A DNA stretch of 64,000 nt from an uncultured Paracoccaceae bacterium (GTDB taxonomy: Bacteria; Pseudomonadota; Alphaproteobacteria; Rhodobacterales; Rhodobacteraceae). Below are positions 19,347-52,629 of the stretch, one piece after another (positions within the stretch are counted from its first letter, which is position 1; each line of letters starts with the position of its first letter). The stretch is taken from NCBI GenBank assembly GCA_947500775.1, contig CANMTD010000002.1, positions 248,001-312,000 on the forward strand, written 5' to 3'. A program made the translations under genes and the position numbers. A model generated the notes under the pieces. The model was not told the origin of the DNA. It ran no database searches and was given only the letters and a program-made list of their open reading frames with translations.

Positions 19347-20159
19347 TCAGCCCCGCCCGGTTGGCCAGTCGTGGGATTCGTCGAACCCGTCGCGCGCCCA
19401 GCGGTACAGCGCGTCATAGAGCGCCATACCAGCGATCAGCTGTTCCTGATCGTCGCGATACTGGCGCGACAGCCCGACCGACAGCGCCAGCAGGCCAGCC
19501 GCTTGCGGCGCCAGATCGTGCCGGTCGGTATCGGCCGCGCGCACGACCTGCGCCAGCCGCATCAGCGCATCGGTCTGCAGGCCGAATTCATCCAGCATGG
19601 TGTCGAAGGTGCAGCTGTCGCCGCGATGGCTCCAGAACACATCCTCGACATCGAAGGGGGTGGCGCCAAAGCGGTCGGCGACGCCCATCACCTCGGCCGG
19701 AGAAACGAACAGGAACCGCGCGCCCGGATCGACAAACCGGCGGATCAGCCACGGACAGGCGATCCGGTCGATCTTGGGCCGGTGGCGGGTGACCCACAGG
19801 GTGCCGCCGCCCACCGGGGCCGGGATGGCGCCCGCCGGAACGCAGGGCGCCTTGGCGGTATCGCGCCAGCCGTATTTGCCGCCCTGCAGATATTCGGCCT
19901 CGATCCCGTCGCCGCGCAGCCAGGCGACCAGACCCTGGCTCAGCTTGATGCCTTTCTGGCAGGTCACGACACAGGCGCGTCCCTGCAATCGGGCCATCAG
20001 GCCGGGGATATCGGTATGGGGGTGGCGAAACGATCCGGGGATCAGATAGGGGTCTTCGGCGAAATCGGGATCGATCGAGATATCGACGATCACCGGCGCC
20101 TCGGGTGTGCCGATCAGGCGCAGAAGCTGGGAAACGGTGATTTCGTTCGGGGCAGCCAT
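19347..20159 (-). CDS. Rhodanese/chromate-resistance fusion protein
   Basis: The 270-residue protein joins an N-terminal rhodanese domain (about 5-105, with ACVVTCQKGIKLSQG carrying the presumed active-site Cys) to a chromate-resistance (ChrB-like) domain. The latter shows VTRHRPKIDRIACPWLIRRF and WSHRGDSCTFDTMLDEFGL. This matches the family labelled sulfurtransferase/chromate resistance protein and sits directly before chrA. The ATG at 20159 is preferred because AAGGA is 8 nt upstream; the ATG at 20168 overlaps that sequence. It could also be a sensor or regulator. Confidence 0.85.
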   Translation of the reverse strand: MAAPNEITVSQLLRLIGTPEAPVIVDISIDPDFAEDPYLIPGSFRHPHTDIPGLMARLQGRACVVTCQKGIKLSQGLVAWLRGDGIEAEYLQGGKYGWRDTAKAPCVPAGAIPAPVGGGTLWVTRHRPKIDRIACPWLIRRFVDPGARFLFVSPAEVMGVADRFGATPFDVEDVFWSHRGDSCTFDTMLDEFGLQTDALMRLAQVVRAADTDRHDLAPQAAGLLALSVGLSRQYRDDQEQLIAGMALYDALYRWARDGFDESHDWPTGRG

Positions 20160-20336
20160 GGCATGCATCCTTGTCTTGCGGAAACATGCGAACCTCTGGC
20201 TGGCGCCTCACGGGGCGTTCGCGTTCATCCCCATGGGCCATAATGATCAGGCGGGGCCGGTCAGGTCAAGATCGTGGGGGGATGAAAGTGCAGGCTTCTG
20301 TTGCCAGGTGCCTGCGAACCCCGCCAAGGCCTGCAA

Positions 20337-20602
20337 AGGCCAGGGACTTAAGTTTTCGATTTCTCGAACTGCTTACGCAGCCAGAGCAACCGGAGCACGA
20401 TTGTCATTTGCAATTGTACTTGTCGGGCCGATACGGTGGCACCCCGCCGAAACAAAGCTAACCCCTTTAGACGTTCGTCGATCCTGTTTCGACCCCATGA
20501 TCCCCAAATGAAGGATATTTGGTGGAGTCGCCGGGTACCGCCCCCGGGTCCGATCCGCGTATTACGAGCGCGTTTATGTCCATAGTCCCGAAGGACATTC
20601 CG
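20337..20602 (-). ncRNA. ssrA: Two-piece (circularly permuted) tmRNA
   Basis: On the minus strand the acceptor piece comes first and ends CCGGCGACTCCACCA (CCA at 20520). After a 23-nt spacer the coding piece starts GGGGTCGAAACAGGATCGACG (20496). The 5' GGGGTCG pairs with CGACTCC and gives the G-U third pair that marks alanine tRNA-like domains. The tag frame (20411-20373) reads A-NDNRAPVALAA-stop. A UUCG-capped hairpin lies at the acceptor 5' side. Gene order acceptor then coding is the alphaproteobacterial permuted form. Outer ends are approximate. Confidence 0.93.
20373..20411 (-). other. tmRNA proteolysis-tag reading frame
   Basis: The resume codon GCA at 20411-20409 is followed by codons for NDNRAPVALAA and a TAA stop at 20375-20373. 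The tag ends in the LAA degron recognised by ClpXP/SspB systems. Confidence 0.92.
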
Positions 20603-21106
20603 AATATATGGGGGCATGGGGCAGGTTTCAAGCGGCAAAGGGGCGGGCCCGCGCCAAATCTGACGCGCCGATGCATCCGGACGGGCGCGGGCGGTGTTAC
20701 ATGTTTTCTTGCAGGTCTTTAAAGGTTCTGGAGGGGGGAGTTTAAAGTCTTGGGGGGTGTTTGGGGCTTGAAAGATGAGGTGTTTGGGGCGCTAGTGGGG
20801 GTGCCCGGCCCGATGCTGCCGCTCAACTTCGCGGCGATTGCTGCGGTCGCGGCAAGTCATTCCGGCCGTTCGCTGTCACCGCGAAGTCTTGGACCGAAGG
20901 GGCGACCGCAGTGCGGACATACCATTAATTCGCTGTAGTGGCGTCAAAGTCCGCTTTATTCTCCATGGTCATCGACTGTCTACCAAGTTGGTCGCCACTC
21001 GGCGGGCTGATGCTGCCACGCTCAACGCACAACAATGCACCACCCTTTTCGCCAGTTTGAAGGTGGAAGTTGTGGTTGGCATTCGGCTTCGCCCTACATA
21101 TAGTTC
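20603..21106. other. Gene-free, probably decayed stretch beside ssrA
   Basis: About 500 bp lie between the tmRNA acceptor piece and the nuclease-like gene. Short frames here lack codon bias or recognisable domains. Two TTTAAAG-type repeats occur near 20720-20745. The sequence may hold the ssrA promoter (near 20603-20660) and remnants of an integrated element, but nothing can be named. Confidence 0.5.
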
Positions 21107-41619: not shown

Positions 41620-42879
41620 ATGCCTGAATACGCCCCCCTCAGCATTCCCGAAGATGGCAAGCTGAGCCATAACATCACCCATTTTGCCCGGGCGCTGCGG
41701 GCCGCGGGCTTGCCGATCGGGCCGGGCCGGGTGGTGCAGGCGATCCGCGCGGTCGAAGCGGCGGGGTTCAGCGAACGCCACGATTTTTACTGGACGCTGC
41801 ACGCCTGTTTCGTCAGCAAACCCGAACAGCGCGATGTCTTTGGCCAGGTCTTTCGCCTGTACTGGCGCGACCCGCGATATCTGGAACAGATGATGAGCCT
41901 GATTACCCCCACCGTGCGCGGGGTATCGGCGGAACGGCAGATCAAATCCGCCGAAAAACGCGCCGCCGAGGCGTTGCTGGACGGGGTGCAGCGCGATGTG
42001 CCCGATCTGCCCGACACGGATGAGGGCAGCGAGGTTGAGATCGACGCCTCGGCCACCGCGTCCTCCGAAGAACGGCTGAAAACGCTGGATTTCGAACAGA
42101 TGAGCCTGTCCGAGATGGCCGAAGCCCGGCGGATGCTGGCGCGGCTCAGCCTGCCGGTGAAGCCGCTGACATCGCGGCGCACGCAGGCCGATCTGCGCGG
42201 CGCGCAGGCCGATTGGCGCCGCACCATGCGCGCGGCGATGCGGCAGGGCGGCGATATCACCGCGCTGGCGCGGCGCGCCCGGCGCACCCGCTGGCCCAAT
42301 CTGGTGGTGCTGTGCGATATTTCGGGATCGATGAGCCAGTACAGCCGCATGGTGCTGCATTTCCTGCATGCGGTCGCCAATGAAAAAGGGGCAGGCTGGG
42401 CCCGGGTTCACGCCTTTACCTTCGGCACCCGGCTGACCAATATCACCCGCCATCTGGCCACCCGCGATGTCGATGCGGCGCTGGCCGCCGCCGGGGCCGA
42501 GGCGCAGGATTGGGAAGGCGGCACGCGGATCGGCGAGGCGCTGCACGCCTTCAACCGCGACTGGTCGCGCCGGGTGCTGGGCACGGGCGCGGTTGTCCTG
42601 TTGATCACCGACGGGCTGGACCGGGGCGATCCCGACCTGCTGGCGACCGAGGCCGAGCGGCTGCACCTGTCGGCCCGGCGGCTGATCTGGATCAACCCCT
42701 TGCTGCGCTGGGACGGATTCGCGCCGCGCGCCGCCGGGGTGCGGGCGCTGTTGCCGCATGTCGATTGCTTTCGCGCGGGCCACAACATCGCCTCGCTTGA
42801 AGCATTGGCCGCATCGCTGTCCAGCGCCCATGACAGCGGCGACAAACCCCGGCTGATGGCGGCCTTGCGCGCGATTTGA
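41620..42879 (+). CDS. coxE: VWA-domain protein (CoxE-like)
   Basis: The 419-residue protein has an N-terminal helical domain, an acidic linker (about 115-155), and a C-terminal von Willebrand A domain with MIDAS VVLCDISGSMSQYSRMVL (about 228-245). VWA proteins act with MoxR ATPases in metalloenzyme maturation. Its position directly behind coxD and upstream of CO-dehydrogenase genes supports CoxE. Its final codons overlap a perfect FnrL-type box. Confidence 0.88.
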   Translation: MPEYAPLSIPEDGKLSHNITHFARALRAAGLPIGPGRVVQAIRAVEAAGFSERHDFYWTLHACFVSKPEQRDVFGQVFRLYWRDPRYLEQMMSLITPTVRGVSAERQIKSAEKRAAEALLDGVQRDVPDLPDTDEGSEVEIDASATASSEERLKTLDFEQMSLSEMAEARRMLARLSLPVKPLTSRRTQADLRGAQADWRRTMRAAMRQGGDITALARRARRTRWPNLVVLCDISGSMSQYSRMVLHFLHAVANEKGAGWARVHAFTFGTRLTNITRHLATRDVDAALAAAGAEAQDWEGGTRIGEALHAFNRDWSRRVLGTGAVVLLITDGLDRGDPDLLATEAERLHLSARRLIWINPLLRWDGFAPRAAGVRALLPHVDCFRAGHNIASLEALAASLSSAHDSGDKPRLMAALRAI

Positions 42880-42889
42880 TCGACATCAA
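42876..42889. promoter_or_regulatory. FNR/FnrL-type box (perfect consensus)
   Basis: TTGAT-CGAC-ATCAA fits the FNR consensus TTGAT-N4-ATCAA exactly. It overlaps the coxE stop codon. The next plus-strand gene begins 246 bp on, after a terminator. Placing the box at -41.5 would put a start site near 42924. Confidence 0.6.
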
Positions 42890-42922
42890 AGTGAGCGGAT
42901 TTCAGGGCTGTTAGCAGTCAGG

Positions 42923-43050
42923 GGAACCGGGCCGAAGCAGCGTTGTTGGTAACCTGTTGATGTGCCGCATTTGCCCGGCGTTCAAAGGGCGCTGTTCCCC
43001 CAGACAGGCCACGAATTGCACCGCGGGCCCTCCCTCCCGCGGTGCTTTTT
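42923..43050 (+). ncRNA. Candidate small RNA downstream of an FnrL box
   Basis: About 128 nt without a credible ORF lie between a perfect FnrL-type box and a strong rho-independent terminator. The sequence allows a long-range pairing of AGCAGCG (42936) with CGCTGTT (42990) before the terminator hairpin. The arrangement recalls FNR-activated small RNAs such as FnrS in E. coli. No sequence similarity is claimed, and the 5' end is estimated. Alternatively this is only the coxDE 3' untranslated region. Confidence 0.4.
43018..43050 (+). terminator. Strong rho-independent terminator after coxE
   Basis: A perfect 10-bp stem GCACCGCGGG/CCCGCGGTGC with an 8-nt loop is followed by five T residues. Confidence 0.92.
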
Positions 43051-43061
43051 GTTCATTCAAA

Positions 43062-43079
43062 CATTGACATGTGTCAATG
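43062..43079. promoter_or_regulatory. CRP/FNR-like palindrome (TTGAC-N4-GTCAA)
   Basis: CATTGACA-TG-TGTCAATG has perfect 8-bp arms and includes TTGA-N6-TCAA, the core of FNR/FixK/Dnr-type sites. Its first half, TTGACA at 43064, could instead be a -35 element for the sulfur transporter genes. Confidence 0.5.
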
Positions 43080-43097
43080 CAAGGGGTTGTCTGTATT

Positions 43098-43119
43098 TAT
43101 ATTCTTAAAATGGAATATA
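43098..43119. promoter_or_regulatory. Inverted repeat TATATTC-N8-GAATATA, SqrR/BigR-type operator
   Basis: The arms are perfect 7-bp complements and contain ATTC-N8-GAAT, the consensus I recall for the persulfide-responsive repressor SqrR of Rhodobacter. It overlaps the probable promoter/leader and ends 15 bp before the YeeE/YedE start codon. No SqrR/BigR gene is in the window. Confidence 0.55.
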
Positions 43120-43134
43120 ACAGGAGGACGCAAA

Positions 43135-43686
43135 ATGACGCTTTCATGGAAAACGGGGGGATTGGCGCTTGGCCTGGTGTTTTTCCTGGCCGTTCTGCTG
43201 GTCAAACCGATCGGCGTTTCAACGCAATTCGTGATTCTGGACGGCATTCTTTGGGACGGGCTGAACCCCGAGGTCGTGACCCAGACCGACGACGGATACA
43301 CATCCACCAACGCCTATCTGGCGAAATCGGGCGGGAAATACGCGAAATCCGTGGCCAACCCGATGAATTATTCCTTCATCTTCGTTCTGGCGATGATGTT
43401 GGGGGCGGGCGTGTCGTCCTATCTGCGCAAGGGCGTGTCGGCCGAGGAACGCACCATGCCCAACCTGTGGCGTGCCAATTTCGGGGATGGCGTGACCAAA
43501 CGCTATCTGGTCGCCTTTCTGGGCGGATTCATCGTGCTTTATGGTGCGCGGCTGGCGGGCGGCTGCACCTCGGGGCACATGATGTCGGGCATGATGCAGA
43601 CCGCGCTGTCGGGCTATATCTTTGCCGCGGGCGCCTTTGCCGCGGCCATTCCAACCGCACTTATCCTGTTCAAATCGGAGGGCTGA
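43135..43686 (+). CDS. YeeE/YedE family sulfur transporter, subunit 1
   Basis: The 183-residue membrane protein has about four to five helices and a conserved GARLAGGCTSGHMMSGMMQ motif with the permeation-path cysteine. The family (YeeE/YedE, PmpA) imports thiosulfate or other sulfur species. The ATG at 43135 follows GGAGGA; an upstream frame from 43042 is noncoding. A partner half follows after 3 bp. The pair sits inside the cox locus, where it could supply sulfur for the molybdenum site, which is inference. Confidence 0.85.
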   Translation: MTLSWKTGGLALGLVFFLAVLLVKPIGVSTQFVILDGILWDGLNPEVVTQTDDGYTSTNAYLAKSGGKYAKSVANPMNYSFIFVLAMMLGAGVSSYLRKGVSAEERTMPNLWRANFGDGVTKRYLVAFLGGFIVLYGARLAGGCTSGHMMSGMMQTALSGYIFAAGAFAAAIPTALILFKSEG

Positions 43687-46358: not shown

Positions 46359-46443
46359 TACGCTAAGGCAACCGCGACTAAAGTCAACGGTTCTCAAACC
46401 CGATGACACATGCTTAACTGGACGAAATTCAGGGAGGAAATTT

Positions 46444-46926
46444 ATGTCAAACGTCACGATGAAGGTGAACGGCAAACCTGTCTCCGGAGAGGTTGAGGGC
46501 CGCACGTTGTTGTCTTCGTTCCTGCGCGAAGGGCTGGAGATGACCGGCACGCATATCGGCTGTGATACCAGCCAGTGCGGCGCCTGCGTGGTGCATGTGA
46601 ACGGGCAGGCCGTCAAATCCTGCACCATGTTCGCGCTGGAGGCCGAGGGCGCCGAGGTGACCACGATCGAAGGCATGGCAAACCCCGACGGATCGCTGTC
46701 GGTGCTGCAACAGGCGTTCCAGGACCACCACGGGCTGCAATGCGGGTTCTGCACGCCGGGCATGGTGATGTCGGCGGCGGCGCTGTTGCAGGACAACCCC
46801 AAGCCGACCGAGGCCGAGGTGCGCGATTATCTGGAAGGCAATCTTTGCCGCTGCACCGGTTACCACAATATCGTGAAGGCGATCATGGCCGCGTCCGGTC
46901 AGGATGTCGCCGTCGCTGCCGAATAA
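46444..46926 (+). CDS. coxS: CO-dehydrogenase-like small subunit, [2Fe-2S]
   Basis: The 160-residue iron-sulfur subunit has a plant-type cluster motif [19 protein letters not shown] with CxxxxCxxC spacing and a downstream SC, then a helical second cluster domain ([25 protein letters not shown]). This is the standard two-cluster small subunit of molybdenum hydroxylases. GGGAGGAAA lies before the ATG. The order S-L-M is that of form II loci. Confidence 0.95.
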
Positions 46927-46963
46927 GCGGGCCACCCGCACAACAGATTTCTGGGAGGATATC

Positions 46964-49330
46964 ATGCCAAAAGACGGAGGCATCGGCGCCAGTTCAAAGC
47001 GGCGCGAAGACGTTCGGTTCCTGACGGGTCAGGGAAATTACACCGATGACATCAACATTCACGGTCAGGCCCATGCGGTCTTTGTCCGCAGTCAGGTGGC
47101 CCATGGCACGCTGAACGGTGTCGACACCGCCGATGCGGCGGCCATGCCCGGCGTTCTGCGGGTGTTCACCGGCGCCGATTTCGAAGGCGTGGGCAGCATT
47201 CCCTGCGGCTGGCAGGTCACCGACCGCTTTGGCGAGGTGATGCAGGAACCGGGTCATCCGGTGCTGGCGCAGGGCAAGGTCCGCCATGTGGGCGACCCGA
47301 TTGCCGTTGTGGTGGCCGAAACCTATGAACAGGCCCGCGACGCGGCCGAGGCGGTGGTGCCTGACATCACCGATCTGCCCGCCGTCGTCGACATGAAGGC
47401 CGCCCTGGCCGAAGGCGCCCCCAAGGTGCATGACGATCTGACCTCGAACCTGTGTTACGACTGGGGCTTTGTCGAAGACAACCGCGATGCGGTCGATGCC
47501 GCGATCCGCGGCGCCCATCACGTCACCACGCTGGAGCTGGTCAACCAGCGTCTGGTCGCCAACCCGATGGAGCCGCGCGTGGCGATCGGCGATTACGCGC
47601 CCGGCACCGGCGACAGCACGCTGTATACCACCAGCCAGAACCCGCATGTGATCCGCCTGTTGATGGGGGCCTTCGTGCTGGGTATTCCGGAACACAAGCT
47701 GCGCGTGGTCGCCCCCGATGTGGGCGGCGGTTTCGGCACCAAGATCTTCCACTACGCAGAAGAGGCATTCTGCACCTTCGCCGCCAAGGCGCTGAAACGC
47801 GCGGTCAAATGGACCTCGACCCGGTCCGAGGCGTTTATGTCCGACGCCCATGGCCGCGATCACGTGACCAAGATCGAACTGGCGCTGGACGAACAGGGCC
47901 AGTTTCTGGCGCTGCGCACCGATACGCATGCGAATATGGGCGCCTATCTGTCGACCTTCGCGCCGTCGGTTCCCACGTGGCTGCATGGCACGTTGATGGC
48001 GGGCAATTACAAGACGCCGCTGATCTATGTGAACGTCAAGGCGGTCTTTACCAACACCGTGCCGGTCGATGCCTATCGCGGCGCCGGTCGCCCCGAAGCG
48101 ACGTTCCAGTTGGAGCGGGTAATCGACAAGGCCGCGCGCGAAATGGGGATCGATCCCGTTGACCTGCGCCGCCGTAACTTCATCACCGAGTTTCCCTATG
48201 CCACGCCGGTGGCCGTGGAATATGATACCGGCGATTACAACGCGACGCTGGACAAGCTGCTGGAGATTGCGGACGTCGCCGGGTTTTCGGCCCGCGAGGC
48301 GGAAAGCAAGGCGCGCGGTAAACTGCGCGGTCTGGGCCTGAATTGCTATATCGAGGCTTGCGGCATCGCGCCGTCGAACCTTGTCGGGCAGCTGGGCGCG
48401 CGCGCAGGCCTGTACGAAAGCGCCACCGTGCGGGTCAACGCGACCGGCGGTCTGGTGGTCATGACCGGCAGCCACAGCCACGGGCAGGGGCATGAAACAT
48501 CCTTCCCGCAGGTGATTTCCGAAATGATCGGCATCCCCGAGGATATGATCGAAATCGTGCATGGCGACACCGCCAATGCGCCGATGGGGATGGGCACCTA
48601 TGGTTCGCGTTCGCTGGCCGTGGGCGGGTCCGCGATGGTGCGGGCCACCGAAAAGATCATCGCCAAGGCCAAAAAGATCGCGGCCCATCTGATGGAGGCC
48701 GCCGAGGGCGATATCGAACTGAAGGACGGCCAGTTCAGCGTTGCGGGCACCGATAAATCGGTGGCCTGGGGCGATGTCACGCTGGCCGCCTATGTGCCGC
48801 ACAACTATCCGCTGGAGGATATCGAACCGGGGCTTGAGGAAACGGCGTTCTATGACCCGGCCAACTTTACCTACCCCTCGGGCGCCTATGCCTGCGAGGT
48901 CGAGGTCGACCCCGACACCGGCAAGGTCACCATCGAACGGTTCGCGGCGGCCGATGATTTCGGCAATGTCGTCAACCCGATGATCGTGGACGGGCAGGTT
49001 CATGGCGGGCTGGCGCAGGGCATCGGTCAGGCGCTGCTGGAGGGCTGCAGTTACGACAGCGACGGCCAGTTGATCAGCGGCAGCTATATGGATTACGCCA
49101 TGCCGCGCGCCGATGACGTGCCGTTCTACAGCGTCGATCATTCCTGTCAGACGCCCTGTACCCACAACCCGCTGGGCGTGAAAGGCTGCGGCGAGGCGGG
49201 GGCCATCGGATCGCCGCCCGCGGTGGTCAATGCGGTGGTCGATGCCCTGCAACGGGCCGGCCACAGCGACATCACCCATATTGATATGCCCCTGACGCCC
49301 GCGCGCGTCTGGTCGGCAATGAACGGCTGA
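46964..49330 (+). CDS. coxL: Form II CO-dehydrogenase-like large (Mo) subunit
   Basis: The 788-residue catalytic subunit binds molybdopterin cytosine dinucleotide. The active-site loop is AYRGAGR (residues 370-376), the form II motif, in place of form I AYxCSFR, so the Cu-binding Cys is missing. [16 protein letters not shown] and a C-terminal [19 protein letters not shown] (catalytic Glu) are present. Start ATG 46964 follows GGGAGG. Form II enzymes may oxidise CO slowly or act on other substrates, so the substrate remains open. Confidence 0.93.
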
Positions 49331-51605: not shown

Positions 51606-52559
51606 TCAGACCGTGACCTTGCGATCCGCGGGATGCAGGGATTTGCCCAGAATATGTTCCGATTCATGGATCACATGGGTGGCCCGGCCAACAATCAGCG
51701 GATCGGGGCCATGGGCGATTTTCAAATCCTTGCCGGGGTAATCCACGGTGCTTAGGAAATGCAGCATACAGTTCAGCCGCGCCCGTTTCTTATCGTTTGA
51801 CTTGACCACGATCCAAGGCGCATCGGCGGTGTCGGTGTAAAAGAACATCGCCTCTTTGGCTTCGGTATAGTCATCCCATTTGTCCAGGCTGGCCTTGTCG
51901 ATCGGGCTAAGCTTCCAGCGTTTCAACGGGTCGGTTTCACGGCTGGTGAACCGGTTGCGCTGTTCCTCTTGGGTGACGGAGAACCAGTATTTGTGAAGCT
52001 GAATGCCCGAGCGTACCAGCATGCGTTCAAATTCCGGGGTCTGGCGCATGAATTCCAGATATTCCTGCGGCTGGCAGAACCCCATCACCCGTTCGACGCC
52101 CGCGCGATTGTACCACGACCGGTCATAAAGCACGATTTCGCCCGCGGTGGGCAGGTGGTTGACGTAGCGCTGGAAATACCACTGGCCGCGCTCGTCCTCG
52201 GTGGGTTTGTTCAACGCGACCACGCGGGCGGCGCGGGGGTTCAGGTGTTCGGTGAACCGCTTGATGGTTCCGCCTTTGCCTGCCGCATCCCGGCCTTCGA
52301 ACAGCAATACGAATTTCTGCCCGGTTTCCTGCGCCCACAACTGCGCTTTCAGCAATTCGGCCTGCAGCTTGGCCTTCTGAGCCTCATAGCTGCGGCGCGA
52401 CAGTTTGGTGTCATAGGGGTAGGTGCCGTTTTCAAAAACCTCGCGCACCATCGCCGCGCTTGGATGACGGTTGGGCCGTGACGGGGCCGGTTTGACAGTG
52501 GATGTATCGCCCACGGGCTGTGCGTTTTCTGTGTTCATCTGCGGTGCGTCTTCGGCCAT
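51606..52559 (-). CDS. ppk2: Polyphosphate kinase 2
   Basis: The 317-residue class I PPK2 phosphorylates a nucleoside diphosphate with polyphosphate, or the reverse. Walker A is LLFEGRDAAGKGGTIKRF (about 86-103), and Walker B is IVLYDRSWYNRAGVERVMGF. A lid motif NRFTSRETDPLKRWKLSPID is present. ATG 52559 is preferred because AGGAG is 6 nt upstream; ATG 52565 overlaps it. A perfect FnrL-type box lies about 60 bp upstream. Confidence 0.95.
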   Translation of the reverse strand: MAEDAPQMNTENAQPVGDTSTVKPAPSRPNRHPSAAMVREVFENGTYPYDTKLSRRSYEAQKAKLQAELLKAQLWAQETGQKFVLLFEGRDAAGKGGTIKRFTEHLNPRAARVVALNKPTEDERGQWYFQRYVNHLPTAGEIVLYDRSWYNRAGVERVMGFCQPQEYLEFMRQTPEFERMLVRSGIQLHKYWFSVTQEEQRNRFTSRETDPLKRWKLSPIDKASLDKWDDYTEAKEAMFFYTDTADAPWIVVKSNDKKRARLNCMLHFLSTVDYPGKDLKIAHGPDPLIVGRATHVIHESEHILGKSLHPADRKVTV

Positions 52560-52615
52560 GGACATCTCCTTGCTAACAGGCGCCAGAAAGGTATCAGAAT
52601 AGGCGGCGATACGCC

Positions 52616-52629
52616 TTGATGTGAATCAA
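52616..52629. promoter_or_regulatory. FNR/FnrL-type box upstream of ppk2
   Basis: TTGAT-GTGA-ATCAA matches TTGAT-N4-ATCAA exactly. Its centre is about 64 bp before the preferred ppk2 start (52559), a normal distance for an activator site. Confidence 0.65.

Follow-up and report, generated by a model that had tools for sequence, protein, structure and literature searches.

The segment at positions 42876-43050 of the window, a 64,000-nt stretch of DNA from an uncultured Paracoccaceae bacterium, is best read as a stand-alone gene for a small RNA (sRNA) that would be activated by FnrL and act at low oxygen like anti-Shine-Dalgarno (anti-SD) sRNAs, a reading to which we assign a probability of about 0.7 on the strength of sequence comparison. 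An FnrL-activated sRNA had been the proposal of the first-pass annotation of this DNA, and comparison with relatives, in which the box, the -10 spacing and the terminator co-occur, supports it as the best reading; the conserved C-rich loops were absent from that annotation and were added by the comparison. The anatomy of the locus, its recurrence, its association with the box and the excess of a C-rich motif all emerge from comparing sequences.

The features of the locus and of its surroundings are collected in Table 1. The perfect TTGAT-N4-ATCAA box described by the first-pass annotation was confirmed and shares bases with the TGA stop of coxE. A potential start at class II distance had likewise been proposed; placing the box centre at -41.5 puts it at 42924, with TAGCAG as the -10-like element, and the TA of this element is conserved at that spacing in relatives. 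A sigma-70 consensus scan returned no promoter. The perfect 10-bp terminator stem is also as described, spanning 43018-43045 around an 8-nt loop, CCCTCCCT, with TTTTT following. The interval had been called free of open reading frames (ORFs) over about 128 nt, which holds insofar as no ORF of at least 9 codons has both its start and its stop inside 42924-43050, but mechanically called ORFs do run across the predicted sRNA, one from a GTG at 42962-43108 (48 aa) and one on the minus strand at 42911-43060 (49 aa).

Table 1. Coordinates of the features discussed, in positions of the window
Feature	Position	Strand	Basis or remark
FNR/FnrL box TTGATCGACATCAA	42876..42889	+	similar boxes recur 5' of homologous hairpins
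-10-like TAGCAG, weak match, 22 nt 3' of the box	42912..42917	+	spacing common to family members
Predicted small RNA, ~127 nt	42924..43050	+	5' end predicted by class II spacing, 3' end by the terminator
Middle hairpin, stem CUGUU/GACAG, C-rich loop CCCCCA	42988..43010	+	MFE and centroid folds
Predicted intrinsic terminator, 10-bp stem, loop CCCUCCCU (43028-43035), T5	43018..43050	+	covarying stem, loop conserved among homologues
coxE (VWA_CoxE, PF05762), 5' neighbour of the sRNA	41620..42879	+	domain match
YeeE/YedE-type sulphur transport gene (PF04143), 3' neighbour of the sRNA	43135..43686	+	domain match
Second FNR-like palindrome TTGACATGTGTCAA	43064..43077	+	outside the sRNA; probably promoter region of the next gene
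Candidate target, AGGGAGG ahead of the ATG of a coxS-type gene	46431..46446	+	loop complementarity, prediction
Candidate target, GGGAGG ahead of the ATG of a coxL-type gene (motif AYRGAGR)	46953..46966	+	prediction

Over 1.1 kb, the terminator scan called 2 terminator-like sites and shuffled sequences gave 1.1 under the same scan, so that the hairpin by itself is weak proof, and the fold scores modestly above shuffles (z of -2.7 for 42926-43054 and -1.9 for 42924-43050). The window copy is lean: its body has a single UCCC, its -10 is weak and these z-scores are modest. Directly before the yeeE genes, a palindrome, TATATTCTTAAAATGGAATATA at 43098-43119, lies beside TTGACATGTGTCAA and in our view resembles BigR/SqrR sites; the two probably form the promoter region of the next gene, outside the sRNA, and a similar pair is found 3' of the sRNA of one relative (L208). 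Elsewhere in the window, an alphaproteobacterial tmRNA and an adjoining chrB-a RNA match (53 bits, gathering score 43.9) occupy 20157-20635.

Exact FNR boxes, which the first-pass annotation had expected to be rare by chance, occur at 2 sites in the window and at 22 sites genome-wide (3.97 Mb), where the control read backwards gives 0. With one mismatch allowed the window is unremarkable, its 3 boxes being within the reach of chance (1.1 expected; 11 of 100 shuffles reach 3). The other exact box of the window, at 52616-52629, lies ~50 nt 5' of a minus-strand gene (51606-52565) that by eye resembles polyphosphate kinase 2. The same genome encodes FnrL, which scores 461.8 bits against the NCBIfam equivalog (cut-off 300), has N-terminal cysteines and reads ETVSRQ in its recognition helix; at least one further Crp/Fnr-type protein (L260) is encoded as well.

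A plain DNA search with the sRNA matched 98 of 394 family genomes at E ≤ 0.1, the genome itself included, and the matches listed, apart from its own, are short pieces of ~18-50 nt that match the terminator. We also read the DNA 3' of coxE in 80 named coxE loci, which are the best 80 of 574 genomes encoding a relative and are biased toward close ones. When every locus was scanned for the loop motif, an FNR box together with hairpins bearing GGGCCTCCCTCC turned up in two of them, L082 (Rhodovulum robiginosum) and L045. Among 29 loci from a pattern search (L138-L166), 5 have a box 127-173 nt upstream and 24 have none, the 5 being those in which the motif sits inside a long terminator-like hairpin. 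A hairpin with no box within 260 nt is present in L010 and as the third copy of L004. The pattern occurs once in the genome of the window; the bare pattern GGGCC(N)TCCCTCC was rejected as a marker for being unspecific, with occurrences in 149 of 394 genomes and a reversed control whose counts look about as large in the unsummed table.

A covariance model, R1, was built from the terminator hairpin alone (12 hairpins from 11 loci), the boxes of most seeds being already known before the model was made. All 120 cells of its alignment pair, and both partners differ in 4 of the 10 pairs. Run against 394 family genera, R1 yielded 23 matches of at least 39.7 bits in 22 genomes; its E-values are rough, and 16 candidates were scored per genome, so that a missing match does not prove absence. 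In Rhodobacteraceae the model recovers hairpins that carry the loop CCUCCCU, and weaker matches grade into ordinary terminators. A box stands 100-260 nt upstream in 20 of these 22 genomes, with G373 counted through its second match (its best match has no box within 400 nt), and an FNR-like box is found upstream in 10 of the 12 that contributed no seed, the strong matches in G232 and G281 having none nearby. For comparison, relaxed boxes have a background, per strand and 120 nt, of ~0.003 across the 80 coxE loci and of 0.0075 across the window. Two more genera score under 39.7 bits and have the box, G246 (35.1) and G240 (30.9). Weaker matches served as controls: an upstream box is present at 1 of the 8 loci L189-L196, namely L196 (in G246), the sole locus of that set with the CCUCCCU loop, and at 0 of the 14 loci L245-L258.

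Within the genus that includes G277, a single R1 match above 40 bits, accompanied by a box, occurs in 15 of 16 genomes; among the 14 newly found loci, the box is strict and lies 127-133 nt upstream in 12, and the boxes of L231 and L243 carry a single mismatch. Box, -10 spacing and predicted terminator are found together in these 15 genomes and, across the family, in 22 or more of the 394 genera; L082 has them too, and its genus may already be among the 22. A class-wide search of 385 genomes at E ≤ 1e-5 gave nothing convincing outside the family, its best match, G773 (42 bits), being rejected as a member with another loop and no box. Plasmid searches yielded no match, and Rhodobacter sphaeroides 2.4.1 (G075) yielded no strong R1 match (best E 0.004).

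The promoter and RNA features were compared across 23 members (the 22 genera and L082), which were picked for having the box, none for its -10. In 17 of the 23, the window included, the distance from box to TA is precisely 22 nt; no other offset from 0 to 54 after the box has TA in four or more. Five of the remaining six have TA 1-2 nt away and one, L214, has none. If TA is taken as -12/-11, the box centre falls at -41.5. By sequence, the boxes comprise 8 of the form TTGAT-N4-ATCAA, 8 of the form TTGAC-N4-GTCAA and 7 mixed or G-ending, and this mixture lowered our confidence in the main reading slightly, to 0.70; the TTGAC-N4-GTCAA boxes may belong to another Crp/Fnr regulator in some relatives. 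By eye, ten type A members of different genera (L198, L199, L200, L202, L203, L205-L207, L211, and L216) carry TGTCGCA ~25 nt 5' of the box, and its GTCGC we take to be a possible RegA/PrrA half-site.

The predicted homologues are 92-240 nt long. Type A RNAs measure 123-131 nt, counted from 4 nt ahead of the predicted start; they retain UCUCCC-like motifs at three positions and vary in their stems; in their alignment (24 sequences, from 10 genera and 14 more genomes of one of these), the RNAalifold consensus contains the terminator only, and a single fold of L239 has three hairpin regions. The bodies of the 23 RNAs, terminators removed, contain 81 UCCC motifs versus a shuffled mean of 33 and maximum of 44 (500 shuffles), and 55 of the 81, counted from the listing as a share without control, are fully unpaired in the MFE fold. 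Whole RNAs carry from 2 (L209) to 11 (L197) UCCC; L197, in G373, is a long array after coxE with many UCCC and two terminator-like copies ~300 nt apart.

In the stretches examined, some of them short, coxE lies upstream in 10 of the 23 members, YeeE downstream in 6 and XdhC downstream in 9. Conservation downstream of coxE, on which the first-pass annotation would have had its proposal judged, is borne out in part, by those 10 members and by only 2 of the 80 named coxE loci, which carry the sRNA. By eye, an infC-like gene lies nearby in 6 of 15 loci examined (L198, L203, L206, L208, L210, and L216, where this infC (IF-3)-like gene is on the minus strand), and a MacB-like transporter, also recognized by eye, stands beside 2 of the 15. 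L211 bridges groups, with a type A RNA between coxE and xdhC. Since the contexts differ (coxE, xdhC, infC-like, and MacB-like), the unit appears to be more than a coxE terminator.

This variety of neighbors bears on two readings in which the sRNA gene disappears. In one, the hairpin does no more than end the coxDE operon, or processing of the coxE 3' UTR yields the RNA, and the box is incidental; the box does overlap the coxE stop, and the sections available of a study of R. sphaeroides describe sRNAs cut from 3' UTRs, PcrX and CcsR1-4 (PMC8307010), but 13 of the 23 members keep box and hairpin with coxE undetected upstream in the stretches examined, which leaves this reading quite improbable. 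Even less credible is that the box serves as promoter of the downstream yeeE sulphur-transport genes and the sequence between them is a leader with an attenuator. Some sRNA-less coxE-yeeE intergenic regions (L052 and L085) do have a box directly before a gene that by eye is yeeE-like; in the window, however, an entire terminator stands in between, as does another FNR-like box accompanied by a palindrome, and yeeE follows in just those 6 of 23 members.

Two further alternatives keep the RNA and change either its regulator or its mode of action, and we regard both as unlikely. Another regulator of the Crp/Fnr family could control the sRNA, at least in relatives with TTGAC-N4-GTCAA, which accounts for 8 of the 23 member boxes, and the genome of the window does encode a candidate (L260); the window box, however, has the canonical FNR form and FnrL is present. 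Alternatively, an FnrL-activated RNA could act on a protein or as a sponge of other RNAs instead of on ribosome-binding sites. Repeated C-rich loops would also suit the sponging of G-rich RNAs, and the Caulobacter sRNA CrfA carries a G/A-rich site and acts as a sponge of the C-rich SisA-D, as the consulted part of PMC12559287 reports; against this, the loop is the exact complement of strong ribosome-binding sequences, and anti-SD loops of other sRNAs act on ribosome-binding sites according to the sections available of PMC3927594.

If the RNA acts on ribosome-binding sites, candidate targets lie within the window. The loop CCCUCCCU is predicted to be unpaired and is complementary to AGGGAGG, and the only window ORFs of at least 80 codons with AGGGAG or GGGAGG 3-11 nt before ATG or GTG are those of the coxS-type and coxL-type genes. 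AYRGAGR in the coxL-type product is, we assume, the form II motif; the product scores under the CO dehydrogenase cut-off. In counts not corrected for phylogeny, AGGGAGR precedes coxS in 5 of 5 sRNA-bearing loci versus 8 of 30 sRNA-lacking loci with the start in reach, and precedes coxL in 3 of 4 versus 21 of 23. Either hexamer, AGGGAG or GGGAGG, is found before coxS in 5/5 sRNA-bearing and 29/30 sRNA-lacking loci and before coxL in 4/4 and 23/23, and in coxD, coxE, xdhC, and moe-type genes in 0/20 and 1/176. A duplex-energy ranking of 56 placed coxL 8th (tied) and coxS 12th, singling out neither. Given that the hexamer is equally common in genomes without the sRNA, coxS and coxL are doubtful, hypothetical targets.

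Transcription, FnrL dependence, anti-SD action and targets are what we infer from the features above, and they could combine as follows. At low oxygen, FnrL would bind the box at -41.5 and activate a class II promoter near 42924, and transcription would terminate at the hairpin 43018-43050. The C-rich loops CCCCCA and CCCUCCCU could then pair with G-rich, AGGGAGG-like ribosome-binding sites, which would lower translation of a set of mRNAs, probably for aerobic functions. The Rhodobacteraceae family would keep the FNR-like box, the -10 spacing and the CCUCCCU-type terminator loop, together with a variable number of extra UCCC motifs. More tentatively, the family may represent an oxygen-controlled translational brake of Rhodobacteraceae, in which an FnrL-driven sRNA gains and loses UCCC hairpins as modules and, as oxygen drops, stops translation at strong AGGGAGG ribosome-binding sites, in the cox cluster those of the adjacent CO-dehydrogenase-type subunits coxS and coxL.

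Much work on FNR-activated sRNAs exists for enterobacteria and for Neisseria. For Rhodobacteraceae, the sections available of the literature so far describe FnrL binding near two sRNAs (PMC4263372) and FnrL effects on PcrZ (PMC8139620) and PcrX (PMC8307010). If our reading is true, Rhodobacteraceae, phototrophs and denitrifiers included, would have their own post-transcriptional arm of the oxygen response, and the variable number of loop modules would offer a natural series relating seed count to the reach of an sRNA.

Among known RNAs, no Rfam family reaches its gathering score in the window's sRNA region, nor in any of 20 member loci. The nearest model is ar14 (RF02344), with whole-model scores of 21.8 bits for the window and 30.9 bits for L239; membership was rejected, both being far below the gathering score of 58.8. 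The candidate resembles ar14, whose hairpins bear C-rich CCUCCUCCC loops, and differs from it in its CCUCCCU loop. We know of no FNR promoter for ar14, and the likeness may reflect kinship or convergence. The FnrS promoter has a class II layout and Rfam includes an FnrS model; the lists of Rfam matches to the region, taken to E of 5 and 10, do not include it. Enterobacterial FnrS is directly regulated by FNR, according to the consulted part of PMC4263372; the candidate would share this regulation but is without a covariance match to FnrS in those lists.

The candidate shares anti-SD hairpin loops with SmelA075/SmelA099 and RSs0680a, in which the loop is CCUCCUCCC. RSs0680a is presumably CcsR. 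According to the sections available of PMC3927594, these RNAs fold into two to four hairpins that all present an anti-SD loop. CcsR1-4, which the available part of PMC8307010 describes as cut from a precursor with ccaF1, are stress-linked and precursor-cut, unlike the stand-alone sRNA gene proposed here. In alphaR8/SisA-D of Caulobacter, a C-rich core, UUUCCUCCCU, binds 5' UTRs; there is one core, in a single-stranded stretch, and the promoters have no common motif in the sections consulted (PMC12559287).

DenR/sRNA-29 of Paracoccus was rejected as a different RNA (84 nt, antisense, highest with oxygen). Table 1 of PMC5107571, seen as part of that source, lists Intergenic 36 of P. denitrificans (726444-726596), a 152-nt transcript with ~10-19x more raw reads without oxygen (4807 and 8771, compared with 472 in its presence); its size and behavior fit the family, a likeness by description only. 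PcrZ of R. sphaeroides is described, in the parts available of PMC6238624 and PMC8139620, as an sRNA of 136 nt that has a promoter of its own, is induced by low oxygen and depends on FnrL, perhaps indirectly. Its length, processing and FnrL dependence fit, and sequence rules it out as the same RNA: in 2.4 kb around its reported position (R. sphaeroides 2.4.1 chr1 2,565,820; PMC6238624, consulted in part), there is no UCCC and no FNR-like box upstream. A TTGATGCGGATCAA box lies ~50 nt past the PcrZ end (L228, 1207-1220). RSs2461, we assume, is SorX. FnrL ChIP sites in R. sphaeroides lie near RSs2461 and near RSs0019 (sections available of PMC4263372). RSs0019 is Pos19.

A search of open-licence PMC full text, subscription papers lying outside it, found no report of the candidate RNA in the portions consulted. 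With FNR-activated sRNAs, the candidate has in common a box at about -41.5, by spacing from a predicted start, and an FNR-type regulator in the genome, and with anti-SD sRNAs, loops complementary to the Shine-Dalgarno sequence (the CCUCCCU-type loop and the UCCC excess). Rather than as a member of ar14, PcrZ or FnrS, we file it as an FNR-activated sRNA in kind that would work like the anti-SD sRNAs.
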